A program made the position numbers and the translations under genes. A stretch of DNA of 8,888 nucleotides, taken from Actinomycetota bacterium (GTDB taxonomy: Bacteria > Desulfobacterota > Deferrimicrobia > Deferrimicrobiales > Deferrimicrobiaceae). Numbering within the stretch: position 1 is the stretch's first letter; the number at the start of each line of letters is the position of its first letter. A model generated the notes under the pieces. The model did no database searches and had not been told where the DNA came from. It was given only the letters and a program-made list of their open reading frames with translations. Where the stretch lies: assembly GCA_016844415.1 (NCBI GenBank), contig JAENIX010000068.1, forward strand, positions 1 to 8,888, in the 5' to 3' direction. Shown in pieces: positions 2,805 through 7,570 of this stretch.

Positions 2805-3402
2805 ATGGAAAATTCGAAGGGAAATAGCAACGGATTCGGTTCCCCGCCCGCCAAGCGCCTCCTGGGCCAGGTGCTGGTGGATGGCGGGTTCATCACGCAA
2901 GTGGACCTTGAGCTGGCGCTCGCGGAACAGATTCGCACGAAAGAAAGACTGGGGGAAGTGCTGATCCGGATGGGGAAACTCGGTCCGGAAGAAATAGACG
3001 TCGTGGTTTCCGTTCAGGGTGATCTGGCCTCCTTGAGCGGGGCCGTCAAGGCGGCGGCCGGCGGTCGCCATAATCTTGGCGATCTGTTGCTGAAGGCGAA
3101 ACGGGTTACCCCCGAGCAGCTTGGCAATGCATTGATCGAGCAGCAACGGACTCGAGCAGCAACGGACAGGGGAAAAGCTCGGCAGGGTACTTGTTCGCCA
3201 GGGCTTGCTGACGGATGGAGAACTTGACTCGATCCTGGAATTTCAACATCATCAAGGAGGAGAGGCGCCGGCATCGGCGCGGTTGAGGCTGGGGGAGATC
3301 CTCGTCGCCACCGGCCAGATCACCCGCGAGCAGCTCGATGCCGTACTGATCCAAAGGAAAACAACCCAAAAGAAGCTGGGAGAGCTGCTGGTGGAAGCCG
3401 GC
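2805..3402 (+). CDS. Triple MshEN-type (GspE N-terminal-like) c-di-GMP-binding repeat region; frame-broken N-terminal part of a larger protein
   Basis: Predicted cytosolic part. Six copies of the 24-residue MshEN motif start at 2859, 2946, 3072, 3175, 3286 and 3373. After removing a 16-bp duplication at 3136-3167, they form three pairs, each on a 29-residue period (24 plus a 5-residue spacer). That is the layout known for MshEN, the c-di-GMP receptor domain at the N-terminus of some type II secretion and type IV pilus ATPases. Copies 2 and 5 keep the full RLG start (RLGEVLIRMGKL, RLGEILVATGQI); copies 1, 3, 4 and 6 have Leu, Asn, Lys and Lys in place of Arg. Without correction the first frame ends at 3227. 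The start is ATG 2805 with GGAAGG 5 bases upstream; an upstream GTG (2718) has no ribosome site. No ATPase domain follows. The sixth motif breaks after its Gly (3402) and continues in another frame at 3404. Binding is predicted only. Confidence 0.7.
3136..3167 (+). repeat. Exact 16-bp tandem duplication, frameshifting the MshEN-repeat gene
   Basis: TCGAGCAGCAACGGAC occurs twice with no gap (3136-3151 and 3152-3167). Deleting one copy restores a continuous reading, ALIEQQRTGEKLGRVLVRQG, and places motif 4 exactly 29 residues after motif 3. The duplication therefore sits in the 5-residue spacer of the second MshEN pair. Confidence 0.95.
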
Positions 3403-3403
3403 G

Positions 3404-3913
3404 CGCCGCGGTCTCAAGCTCCAGGAAAAGCTTGTCACCGCGGCGATCCTGGCCGTGCTGTCTCTTGCGACCGTCGGCAGTTCGCAGGAGACCCCTTCCG
3501 GGGGTTCCAGGTCCAACGCCGGCCGCGCCGAGATGATGGTAAACGCCACGGTTGCGTCCCGCGCCGCGGTGAAAGTAATCTACCAACGCCCCGCGGTGGT
3601 CATCACGGATGCCGATATCGCACGGGGATATGTGGATTTCCCCTCCGCCTCCCGGATCGAGGTCCGGAACAACAGCCGGGCGGGGTATCTGCTGGTTTTC
3701 ACGGGGATCGGAGATCTATTTTCGATGTTAGACCAAGTTAACGTGAAGGGACTGGGAATCGAGACCCAGATCGGCCCGGGTGGCGGATGGATCCCCCAAC
3801 CCTATGCCAGGGACACGGTGACGATGGAACTCAGCTACCGCTTTGTCCTTTCGAAGAATATCCGGCCCGGGAGCTATGAATGGCCGCTTTCCCTCTCGGC
3901 GCGACCGATGTGA
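3404..3913 (+). CDS. Membrane segment plus periplasmic pilin-like beta domain; C-terminal part of the MshEN protein or a separate fimbrial subunit
   Basis: The frame-2 continuation reads RRGLKLQEKL, then a hydrophobic stretch LVTAAILAVLSLATVG (about 3431-3478), then a Ser/Gly-rich linker and about 125 residues with alternating beta-strand character. That domain has no Cys and ends with YRFVLSKNIRPGSYEWPLSL, like the last strands of a pilin or Ig-like fimbrial domain; I do not recognise the family. LKLQ at 3413-3424 fits positions 21-24 of the sixth MshEN motif if about 20 nt are missing near 3403, which also explains the frame change, so one fused protein is the better reading. The alternative is a separate secreted subunit whose start was lost: no ATG, GTG or TTG precedes the hydrophobic stretch in frame, and the first in-frame start (GTG 3455) falls inside it. 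The stop lies 52 bases before the chaperone start. Confidence 0.6.
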   Translation, partial: RRGLKLQEKLVTAAILAVLSLATVGSSQETPSGGSRSNAGRAEMMVNATVASRAAVKVIYQRPAVVITDADIARGYVDFPSASRIEVRNNSRAGYLLVFTGIGDLFSMLDQVNVKGLGIETQIGPGGGWIPQPYARDTVTMELSYRFVLSKNIRPGSYEWPLSLSARPM

Positions 3914-3965: not shown

Positions 3966-4748
3966 ATGCCCATGCGATCGCACGGGAGGAGTGTACCGAC
4001 GAACCGGACCGTATTCGTCCTCATCGGGGTCGCTCTTTTCCTTTTCCCTTTCCCTTTCGTTTCCCGGGCAGGGGAATGGAGGGTCACACCCATCCGGCTG
4101 GACCTCGGCAGGGAAGCCAGGAGCGGGGCGATCACGGTCATCAACGAGATGGATGGAAGGCTTCAGGTACAGATGAAGACCTTCGAATGGACCCAGGATG
4201 AAGAGGGGAAAGATAATTATACCGAGACCGACGACATCCTCTTTTTCCCGCGGATGATCCTCTTTGAAAAGAACGAAGAGAGAATCATCCGCGCGGGGAT
4301 CCGAATTCCCCCTGCGGCAAGAGAAAAAACCTATCGATTGTTCATCGAGGAAATACCGGAACCCAGGAAGGCGGAAGGGGCGAACGTGGCCATCGCCATA
4401 CGGTTCGGCGTCCCCATTTTCGTGAAGCCCCTGAAGGAGGAGGTCAAAGGGGAAATCGAGAAGATGGGGATGTCCAACGGGACGGTTGCAGCGCGGGTGA
4501 GAAACGCCGGGAATCGGCATTTCGTCATCCTCTCCGTCGTCGTCAAGGGGAAGAACGGCGGGAACGAGGAGATCTTCTCGAAAGAGCTCTCGGGCTGGTA
4601 TCTTCTTGCCGGGGCCTCGAGGCTCTACACGACGACCGTTCCGCCGGACGCCTGTCCGAATCTGGCGCGGTTGGATATAGAGGTCAAGACCGATACCGTA
4701 ACCCTTCCCGGAAGCATGGTTGCGGAAAAATCCATGTGCATGCCGTAA
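3966..4748 (+). CDS. Periplasmic fimbrial chaperone, PapD-like
   Basis: A 260-residue periplasmic chaperone that would bind fimbrial subunits by donor-strand complementation and deliver them to the usher. The signal peptide runs from positive residues through hydrophobic 15-32 to cleavage after SRA (35). The mature chain begins GEWRVTPIRLDL, the usual first strand. The family hallmark EKTYRLFIEEIPEP is present, followed by the alternating hydrophobic strand VAIAIRFGVPIFV that donates to subunits. The second Ig-like domain runs to a C-terminus with a Cys pair (PDAC, KSMC). ATG 3966 was chosen because AAAGGAT lies 11 bases upstream and the signal peptide begins there; the reading frame is open back to 3843 but overlaps the upstream gene. 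An 8-A run at 3943-3950 lies before it. Only 25 bases separate its stop from the usher start. Most similar in style to Csu-type chaperones. Confidence 0.92.
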   Translation: MPMRSHGRSVPTNRTVFVLIGVALFLFPFPFVSRAGEWRVTPIRLDLGREARSGAITVINEMDGRLQVQMKTFEWTQDEEGKDNYTETDDILFFPRMILFEKNEERIIRAGIRIPPAAREKTYRLFIEEIPEPRKAEGANVAIAIRFGVPIFVKPLKEEVKGEIEKMGMSNGTVAARVRNAGNRHFVILSVVVKGKNGGNEEIFSKELSGWYLLAGASRLYTTTVPPDACPNLARLDIEVKTDTVTLPGSMVAEKSMCMP

Positions 4749-4773
4749 CGCGCCGCTTCCCCCCCAGCGAAAG

Positions 4774-7125
4774 GTGAAAGCAGGCCTCTTCCTCTCTCTT
4801 TCCCTGCTGACGGTCCTCATCTCCATTATCTGTCCCTGCACTGCGGAAGGCACCGAGTTGATATTCGTCCGCATCATCCTAAACCAGGAACCGAAAGGGG
4901 AATTCCTGGTAGGCATCGATGGCGATGGAGACTTTCAGGTCCGTACGGAGGACCTAAAGAAGATGGGGTTCCGGGACCCCAAGGGAAAAACTTCCGAAAT
5001 CGACGGCCAACCCTGCATCTCCATCCGGTCCATGGCAGGAGTCAATAAATCCTTTCATGAAAAGTCCCTCTCCCTGGAAATCACAGCCGATCCGGAATTC
5101 CTGTCGATGCGGACCGTCGACCTTCTCCCGAAACGACAGGCCAAGGTCGAATATCCGAAGGATCCCAGCGGATTCTTCAACTACGGGGTCAGCTATTCCG
5201 CGGGGAAGGACTTCCGTTTCGACACCCTGGGAGTTACCGACCAACTCGGGGTCCGGCTCGGCGAGTTCCTGTTTCTCACGGATTCCTCCTACACGAAAGA
5301 CTCCAAGGATGAAAAATTCGTGAGACTGATGAGCAACGTCACCTACGACCGGCGGCAGGAGCTTCAAAGAATGGTGCTGGGGGATTTCTTCACCTCCTCG
5401 GGCAATCTCGGCAGCAACGTGAACCTGGGGGGGATCGGTTTTTCAAAAGCGTACAGCATGGATCCCTACCTGATTCGGTATCCGCTGGCGAACGTCTCCG
5501 GAATGGCGTCCCTTCCCTCCGAGGTGGACGTGTTGATGAACGGGGTGCGGATCCGGACGGAGAAGATCTCTCCCGGTGAATTCAATTTGAAGAACATCTC
5601 CTCCTATGGCGGGGCCGGCGCCGTCACGCTGGTGATCAAAGACGCCTTCGGGAAAGAACAGAAACTGAACTATCCTTTTTACGTGACGGATATTCTTTTG
5701 AAGAAAGGGCTTCACGAATACAGTTACAACGCAGGCTTCGCCAGAAAAAATTTCGGGGAGGAGAGCAACCGGTACGGGAACCTGGCGTTCTCCGCCTTCC
5801 ATAACTACGGGTTCAGCGATTCCCTCACCATGGGGATGCGAGGGGAGGGCATCCAGGGGAGATATAACCTGGGTCCTGCGGCTTCCTTCCGTCTCCATCA
5901 ATTGGGAATCTTCTCTCTTTCCTTATCCGGCAGCATGGACGAACGGGAGGGCACCGGCTCCGCCGGCTTCGCAAGCTACCAGTACCAGGACGGCAGGATC
6001 TCCGCGAGCGCTCTTGTAAAGGGTTTCACAAGAGGATATGTGGTCGCGGGAGAGGAAGTCCAGGCGGACAGGATCCGGTACGAAACAGGACTCGGCCTGG
6101 GATACGGGAGCAGCGGGTTCGGATCCCTGTCGCTGAGCACGGACATCGTCAGGAAATACGTCGGGCAAAACCGGCAAGTGGACACGGTGAGCTATTCCAG
6201 AATGTTATGGCGGAGTTCGACTCTGGTCGCCTCGTTCCGGAAGATCCGTGACGAAATTTCCTCGACGGAGATCTTCGTCGGCATGACGTACCATGCGAAG
6301 CCGGACCTCTCCCTGTCGACCGGCTATAAAAGGTCGGAAGGAACGAATACGGAAACATTGCAAGCCCAGAAGAACACCCCCGCGGGGGAAGGCTACGGCT
6401 ACCGGGTATCGTTGGAGAGGTTGGATTCGCCGCCAGCTTCCGCCACCTCCGTCAACCCGTTCTATCAATACAATTCCCGGTACGGCGTCTACACCGGCGA
6501 ATACAGGGGAGTCTATAACGATACCGGGCGGGGAAATGAAACGTACAACCTCACCGCCTCCGGGGGAATCGCCTATGTCGGGAAGACGATCGGCCTGAGC
6601 CGTCCGATAACGGACAGCTTCGGACTGGTAAAGGTCGACGATCTCCAGGGAGTCCGGGTTTATCTGAACAACCAGGAAATCGGCCGGACCGACGCAGGGG
6701 GGAAGGTCTTCCTGCCGACCCTGGGGTCTTACGAAGAGAACAGGGTGTCGATCAGCGACAAGGACATCCCGATGGAATATTCCCTGCCCGAAATCGTGAA
6801 ATATGTTTCCCCTCCCCTGCGGAGCGGATCGCTGATTCCGTTCGATGCGAAGAGGTTCCAGGCCGTCACCGGGAAGCTCAATATCCGGACGGAGGAAGGG
6901 ATCCAGCCCGTCGAATATTCCGAGGTCCGGATGCATTCACCAGGGAAGGAGGCCGCATTCCCGACGGGAAGGGGTGGGGAATTCTATCTCGAGAACACGG
7001 AGCCCGGGGAGTACAAGGGCTCCTTTGTCTTCAAGGGGAAAACGTGTACCATTGGGCTGGTCATCCCGAAGACGGAAGAGATGATCGTTGACCTGGGGAG
7101 CCTTGTCTGTGAAGACCTTCGTTAG
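4774..7125 (+). CDS. Outer-membrane fimbrial usher, FimD/CsuD-like
   Basis: A 783-residue usher, near the usual 800-850, forming the outer-membrane channel that assembles and exports the fibre. Signal peptide MKAGLFLSLSLLTVLISI with cleavage near CTA (24). The N-terminal chaperone-binding domain starts ELIFVRIILNQEPKGEFLVG. The barrel region includes LGDFFTSSGNLGSNVNLGGI and SMDPYLIRYPLANVSG. The plug follows: PSEVDVLMNGVRIRTEKISP to about GAGAVTLVIKDAFG. C-terminal domains begin near GLVKVDDLQGVRVYLNN; a last domain carries a Cys pair (GKTC, LVCEDLR). GTG 4774 was chosen because it starts a canonical signal peptide; a TTG at 4720 would add 18 residues and overlap the chaperone by 29 bases, and neither start has a strong ribosome site. 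The 3' end overlaps the next gene by 17 bases. The frame is intact throughout, unlike the gene two positions upstream. Confidence 0.93.
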   Translation: MKAGLFLSLSLLTVLISIICPCTAEGTELIFVRIILNQEPKGEFLVGIDGDGDFQVRTEDLKKMGFRDPKGKTSEIDGQPCISIRSMAGVNKSFHEKSLSLEITADPEFLSMRTVDLLPKRQAKVEYPKDPSGFFNYGVSYSAGKDFRFDTLGVTDQLGVRLGEFLFLTDSSYTKDSKDEKFVRLMSNVTYDRRQELQRMVLGDFFTSSGNLGSNVNLGGIGFSKAYSMDPYLIRYPLANVSGMASLPSEVDVLMNGVRIRTEKISPGEFNLKNISSYGGAGAVTLVIKDAFGKEQKLNYPFYVTDILLKKGLHEYSYNAGFARKNFGEESNRYGNLAFSAFHNYGFSDSLTMGMRGEGIQGRYNLGPAASFRLHQLGIFSLSLSGSMDEREGTGSAGFASYQYQDGRISASALVKGFTRGYVVAGEEVQADRIRYETGLGLGYGSSGFGSLSLSTDIVRKYVGQNRQVDTVSYSRMLWRSSTLVASFRKIRDEISSTEIFVGMTYHAKPDLSLSTGYKRSEGTNTETLQAQKNTPAGEGYGYRVSLERLDSPPASATSVNPFYQYNSRYGVYTGEYRGVYNDTGRGNETYNLTASGGIAYVGKTIGLSRPITDSFGLVKVDDLQGVRVYLNNQEIGRTDAGGKVFLPTLGSYEENRVSISDKDIPMEYSLPEIVKYVSPPLRSGSLIPFDAKRFQAVTGKLNIRTEEGIQPVEYSEVRMHSPGKEAAFPTGRGGEFYLENTEPGEYKGSFVFKGKTCTIGLVIPKTEEMIVDLGSLVCEDLR

Positions 7126-7570
7126 GCTGTGCGCCCTCCTGCTCTTCGCCTGTCCAACCGGGGAGGCACGGGCCCTCTGCAACGTCACGGCGACAAGTGT
7201 GAACTTCGGCGCGTACGATGTCTTCGTGGCCGCGCCGCTGGATTCCACGGGCAGCGTGACCGTCTCCTGCACCTATTTCTTGCCGCGCAATGTGACGGTT
7301 TCGATCGGAGCCAGCGCGACTTCGGGCGGGTTCAATCCCAGGAGGATGAGGCCGCCGTCGGGATCCGACCGGCTGGATTACAACCTTTTCACCACTTCTT
7401 CCAGGAGCACCATCTGGGGGGACGGAACGGCAGGAACGTCAACCGTCCTTCTTTCCAACGTCAGAAGAAACCAGCCGCGGGTCACCACGATCTACGGGAG
7501 AATCCCCGCCGGGCAGGATATCCAGGTAGGCTCCTTCACCGACACCGTGACGGTTACGATCCTCTATTAA
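7109..7570 (+). CDS. SCPU-domain fimbrial subunit, last gene of the locus (probable minor or tip subunit)
   Basis: A 153-residue secreted subunit. GTG 7109 begins MKTFVRLCALLLFACP, a signal peptide with likely cleavage after ARA (22), and has GGGGAG 8 bases upstream. It overlaps the usher stop by 17 bases, so translation is probably coupled. The mature chain LCNVTATSVNFGAYDVF is a textbook SCPU start (Cys, then NFG). The second Cys is in VTVSCTYF, and the chain ends DTVTVTILY. Position after the usher is that of the tip adhesin CsuE in Acinetobacter-type loci, but CsuE is roughly twice as long with two domains, whereas this has one. It could be a tip, an initiator or a second pilin. A longer reading from TTG 7088 is open but lacks the ribosome site and adds residues before the signal peptide. 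Confidence 0.87.
   Translation: MKTFVRLCALLLFACPTGEARALCNVTATSVNFGAYDVFVAAPLDSTGSVTVSCTYFLPRNVTVSIGASATSGGFNPRRMRPPSGSDRLDYNLFTTSSRSTIWGDGTAGTSTVLLSNVRRNQPRVTTIYGRIPAGQDIQVGSFTDTVTVTILY

Follow-up and report, generated by a model that had tools for sequence, protein, structure and literature searches.

A c-di-GMP motif domain joined to a predicted pilin-like exported domain in a bacterial chaperone-usher locus

We analysed an 8,888-nucleotide (nt) stretch of a Deferrimicrobiaceae genome (GenBank assembly GCA_016844415.1, contig JAENIX010000068.1), hereafter the window, in which a chaperone-usher locus contains a gene joining cyclic diguanosine monophosphate (c-di-GMP) motif repeats to a predicted pilin-like exported domain. 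The genes of this locus and the parts of the fusion gene lie on the plus strand. The locus opens with an SCPU fimbrial subunit (2079-2540; Pfam SCPU, E = 2.6e-9) and closes with a second SCPU protein (7088-7570; SCPU, E = 6.8e-31), and it includes a periplasmic pilus chaperone (3966-4748; PapD_N, E = 1.9e-13) and an outer-membrane usher (4720-7125; Usher, E = 1.4e-32). The fusion gene, recognised from its frame pieces and from intact relatives, occupies positions 2805-3913 between the first SCPU gene and the chaperone gene. In the contig it is split over three frames, in pieces A (frame of 2805), B (frame of 3166) and C (frame of 3428), which together encode five whole c-di-GMP motifs and parts of one more, followed by a hydrophobic stretch and then the beta domain.

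The first frame change falls at a 16-nt tandem direct repeat (3136-3167; copies 3136-3151 and 3152-3167) and the second near 3404-3410. An intact copy, P0059 (370 amino acids), shares 96.5, 94.9 and 98.8% identity with pieces A, B and C. The window uvrA is likewise frame-broken near 590 (580-605), although its two parts match the unbroken uvrA frame of L014, a locus from the same genus, at 100 and 98.3% identity. The window usher, chaperone and both SCPU genes can each be aligned with relatives without a change of frame. The ratio of nonsynonymous to synonymous substitution rates between the window and L014 was 0.30, 0.27 and 0.38 for pieces A, B and C, compared with 0.38 for the first SCPU gene and 0.16 for the chaperone gene. 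Because a near-identical intact copy exists and uvrA is also broken, an assembly error appears likelier than a pseudogene, though not proven.

The NCBIfam profile NF053729 ('c-di-GMP_motif'; curated cut-off 38 bits) matched piece A with 72.1 bits (E = 2.3e-20) and piece B with 61.2 bits (E = 6.1e-17), over two stretches in each. In L014, whose fusion gene is uninterrupted, motifs 1 to 6 begin at residues 19, 48, 90, 119, 156 and 185, giving each pair a period of exactly 29 residues (24-residue motifs, 5-residue spacer). The three pairs with this period that a sequence-only reading of the window had described are thereby borne out, and by profile and spacing the repeats are confirmed as an MshE-type c-di-GMP motif domain. 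The MshEN assignment made in that reading stood for NF053729, which scored above its cut-off, but not for Pfam MshEN PF05157, a 90-position model that the window pieces did not match. PF05157 has seven places in the window's own genome, none of them in the window, and it is absent from the precomputed Pfam domains of the 120 relatives listed among the 394 proteins that the family search found; motif and repeat counts cover all 120 (A1: 73 of them), and 24 were inspected in sequence. The MshEN C-subdomain was likewise unmatched in the window pieces. At the structural level, a repeat pair superposes on the GSPII domain of MshE/PilF with 1.5 Å over 58 residues, and the PDB matches for pairs 3, 1 and 2 were PilF and MshE, with PilB in addition for pair 2.

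Pair 1 is complete within the window and consists of motif 1 (2859-2930, LLG..Q) and motif 2 (2946-3017, RLG..Q), both matched by NF053729. In pair 2, motif 3 (3072-3143, NLG), placed by the contact-position check and by comparison with L014, has no turn glycine and is followed by motif 4 (3175-3246, KLG..Q), which passes the contact-position check and lies in the NF053729 match on piece B. Pair 3 comprises motif 5 (3286-3357, RLG), matched by NF053729 but with arginine in place of its last glutamine, as also in L014, and motif 6 (3373-3424), which is cut by the second frame change, only partly visible and placed by comparison with L014. That only motifs 2 and 5 keep the RLG arginine had been taken as a limit on binding, and this now appears too strict. 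According to PMC11731258, PilF GSPII-B carries K and L at the first position with a dissociation constant (KD) of 6 nM, the K167L variant has a KD of 2 nM, and the authors extend the consensus to (R/K/L)LG because K and L bind tightly there. For MshE, PMC5013675 reports a cost of at most about fivefold for changing Arg9, Asp12 or Gln32. Absent RLG arginines thus do not rule out c-di-GMP binding. By the (R/K/L)LG consensus, pair 1 is the window pair in which every contact position is conserved along with the two turn glycines, while motif 3 and motif 5 fail one position each.

In an alignment of 121 sequences, each motif has Gly3 in 114-121 of them and Gln24 in 107-121, and the first position is most often L/P, M/L, L/Y, K/R, R and K/N in motifs 1-6, respectively. 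Under the (R/K/L)LG rule without turn glycines, pairs 1, 2 and 3 pass in 28, 51 and 56 sequences, and at least one pair passes in 83; with the first residue nearly free, the membrane-proximal pair 3 keeps its contacts in 101. Pair 2 is short of a turn glycine in 116. Given these counts, many members probably bind c-di-GMP through at least one pair, whereas for others this is doubtful. The ligand itself is probably made in the window's organism, since its genome has seven GGDEF places.

Downstream of the motifs lies a short hydrophobic segment with a possible cleavage region (3431-3487), placed from the sequence and the family pattern. The hydrophobic run of the fusions is short, comparable to that of stand-alone relatives, and the segment looks like a signal peptide in character. 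In the structure model, the last motif helix runs unbroken into the membrane helix (198-227). The predicted pilin-like beta domain (3527-3910), predicted to form a beta-sandwich, begins with an alternating hydrophobic, putatively donor-strand-like segment (3527-3553) that was placed by alignment and aligned weakly to SCPU over the same stretch; a 17-row alignment of the beta domain revealed no invariant cysteine. The hydrophobic stretch, the beta domain and the position of the gene between the first SCPU gene and the chaperone gene are all present in the window as first described. Of the membrane protein proposed from them, with a sensor and a pilin-like domain, the one-protein fusion was borne out, but a membrane anchor is not established because this stretch looks more like a signal peptide.

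In the listed relatives the motifs, the short hydrophobic segment and the beta domain occupy one frame, with six repeats before the beta domain in 116 and seven in 4. Piece C was matched in 6 of 26 genomes of the class sample, its own included, and in the other five it lies within one open frame of 375-496 codons. Two genomes of the same genus (G011 and G012; 97% completeness) had neither the fusion gene nor an usher. Relatives occur in the named records DeMMO2_54 (L014), UBA4796 (L015) and Nitrospirae GWC2_56_14 (L016). The beta profile matched 17 of 395 genomes in the sample of the window's own phylum and 27 of 395 in the phylum of L016, each count including the source genome. The beta-domain listing held 102 proteins, 36 of them inspected, and 68 of the 102 showed no repeat by profile; because several listed proteins are fusion fragments on short contigs, stand-alone counts were drawn from genome loci only.

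The same beta domain follows different N-terminal parts. It occurs behind three motif pairs, two (P0231) or one (L054 and the P0193 group), behind a plain signal-peptide-like N-terminus in stand-alone forms and, in two genomes, behind a response-regulator receiver and a signal-peptide-like segment (L046:6062-6958; L047:5542-6435). The P0193-type single-pair proteins, of which one named source is Casimicrobiaceae, retain KLG..Q and RLG..Q. The receiver-form genes lie directly downstream of a PAS histidine kinase gene and upstream of a second receiver gene, and G354, one of the two genomes, also has a three-pair form (L043) in its chaperone-usher locus. At the 18 stand-alone loci no sensor is used, and one carries a motif remnant. 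On an 82-row tree, which includes 13 stand-alone and 10 single-pair proteins from the beta-domain listing, parsimony required 12 architecture changes, of which well-supported branches force fewer. A single clade was rejected for the signal-peptide forms (p = 9.7e-5) and for the three-pair forms (p = 1.3e-6), the groups having been chosen after the tree was seen. From these changes and rejections, we read the beta domain as an output module that has gained or lost differing cytosolic inputs.

Chaperone, usher or SCPU genes were present in the fetched stretch at 19 of 27 MshEN-fusion loci and 13 of 18 stand-alone loci, a tally that leaves out L051, which lies at a contig edge, L076 and L084, for which no wide stretch was fetched, and L087, whose second match is weak. 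Intact homologues between SCPU and chaperone genes, which the sequence-only reading had called for, were found as single-frame relatives, with that order at 11 of the 27 fusion loci (the window, L014, L015, L017, L018, L019, L020, L048, L089, L092 and L102); at the remaining chaperone-usher fusion loci the gene stands elsewhere or the order is hidden by a contig end. The possibility that relatives encode repeats and beta domain as two genes was realised only at L109, among the 18 stand-alone loci. There, in G498 (L109:2329-6911), the gene after the stand-alone beta gene encodes two c-di-GMP motif stretches and an MshEN C-part in a protein of its own, and a PAS-GAF-HD gene comes next. This arrangement may be a split version of the same sensor-beta link, although chance adjacency is possible because a separate multi-repeat gene adjoins only this one of the 18 stand-alone loci, against 27 fused loci. 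Further observations concern the surroundings of the gene. L092 has a HAMP-GAF-GGDEF gene (L092:1116-2912) upstream of the SCPU genes in its chaperone-usher locus with the fusion, and L089 has a small separate open reading frame with one c-di-GMP motif pair (L089:9873-10217) upstream of the SCPU gene adjacent to the fusion. In L132 (G003) the usher gene contains a run of N and no chaperone was found beside it; a fusion may be lost in the gap. L090, L096 and L097, from genomes with no usher detected, have a GGDEF gene in the fusion's stretch; in L090 and L096 the upstream part of the stretch also contains uvrB and radical SAM-B12 genes.

Taking these features together, we tentatively lean towards a mechanism in which c-di-GMP governs when the predicted pilin-like beta domain leaves the inner membrane and is handed over to the chaperone-usher pathway. 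The sensor part would remain in the cytosol, and the hydrophobic segment would insert N-in and be cleavable by signal peptidase, so that the uncut protein would tether the beta domain, perhaps along with its chaperone, to the inner membrane. When c-di-GMP binds beside the membrane, insertion or cutting could be altered, and the freed beta domain would then join or terminate the fibre; in the receiver version, phosphorylation would take the place of c-di-GMP. The sensor seems well placed to decide cutting, as its last helix continues into the segment where cleavage would take place. In the uncut protein the donor-strand-like segment would lie about 15 residues from the inner membrane, leaving the outer-membrane usher out of reach; such a protein could only hold back chaperone or subunits, and entry into the fibre would need cutting. 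For this reason we prefer gated release over a permanent anchor, and consider release at least as likely as anchoring. The more general proposal, a signal-gated preprotein in which an interchangeable cytosolic sensor before a signal peptide decides export and cleavage of a pilin-like subunit, we hold with greater doubt.

Several results weigh against gated release. AxA sites are barely enriched, occurring in 103 of 141 sequences against 89.3 expected from shuffling. The beta domain has no Pfam match and no match to known pilins by sequence, its similarity to the SCPU profile reaches an hhalign probability of 2.4% over a short N-terminal stretch only, and Foldseek returned no PDB match to it at E 1e-3. 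Motif 5 lacks its last glutamine in L014 as well as in the window; with turn glycines required, pairs 1, 2 and 3 pass in 12, 2 and 29 of the 121 sequences, and only 37 keep every position in some pair. Neither of the two receiver loci has chaperone-usher genes, 8 of the 27 fusion loci show none in the fetched stretch, and in 14 genomes where such genes were scarce or absent around the gene, an usher search detected none in 9; seven of these hold a fusion and belong to those eight loci (their completeness is not stated). The family is thus tied mostly, but not only, to chaperone-usher systems; given these seven genomes, the control of chaperone-usher pili foreseen from the sequence cannot be its only use.

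Fusions in genomes without a detected usher would suit an uncut, permanent inner-membrane transducer, in which c-di-GMP changes the periplasmic beta domain in a LapD-like manner and this domain, by binding the chaperone or subunits, turns assembly on or off. The retention of two sensor kinds before the same beta domain and the continuous motif and membrane helix of the model also fit such a device, yet the hydrophobic run is as short as that of stand-alone relatives, which start with a signal-peptide-like N-terminus, and we judge it unlikely, if a serious contender. That resemblance to a signal peptide instead suits a beta domain that is always cut and exported as an ordinary subunit, as do the stand-alone forms that need no sensor; the cytosolic part would then serve separately, for example by placing the preprotein at the cell pole or at c-di-GMP-rich sites. 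Repeated joining and loss, together with the module swap, suggest that the link itself matters, and make this improbable. Least probable of all, in our estimate, are repeats that decayed from MshE-type domains into a c-di-GMP-blind scaffold. The few relatives with one pair intact at every checked position, the loss of the pair 2 turn glycine and the unmatched C-subdomain would agree with it; the near-invariant Gln24 and Gly3 and the motifs kept in P0193-type proteins argue against it, as do the tighter binding of PilF with K or L for R (PMC11731258) and the small cost of Arg9 or Gln32 changes in MshE (PMC5013675).

The fusion resembles several known systems in part. The 24-residue motif pair with its 5-residue spacer is common to the GSPII (MshEN) domain of the MshE/PilF ATPases of type IV pili and secretion, but the present family has neither an ATPase nor an MshEN C-subdomain match, and places three pairs before an exported domain. 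NfrB is reportedly an MshEN-related, c-di-GMP-activated glycosyltransferase; its motif repeats are related, and the repeats here match NfrB models weakly, yet NfrB is an enzyme whereas the family described here would be an exported subunit. With SCPU, or archaic chaperone-usher, subunits such as Csu and CupE the beta domain shares the locus in most cases, predicted export, a predicted beta-sandwich and a putatively donor-strand-like N-terminal segment, and differs in having no profile match, no invariant cysteine and a sensor in front. LapD is a c-di-GMP receptor that works through the inner membrane on an adhesin, and the fusion would similarly relay c-di-GMP levels in the cytosol to attachment at the cell surface; unlike in LapD, the output is a predicted pilin-like domain rather than a protease trap, and no LapD-type GGDEF, EAL or HAMP match was found in the window pieces or the relatives scanned. 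In agreement with the sequence-only reading, which knew of no such device, we found no description of a sensor-pilin fusion in the open-access literature (subscription papers and supplements lay outside the search).

To our knowledge, known c-di-GMP control of chaperone-usher fimbriae is transcriptional. If a c-di-GMP module or phospho-receiver and a predicted pilin-like exported domain are physically joined in a widespread protein, this would couple second messenger and fibre assembly directly and in a testable way, and the natural sensor swaps on one output domain offer ready-made controls. If the more general proposal of a signal-gated preprotein is correct, a second messenger would set fibre assembly without transcription.
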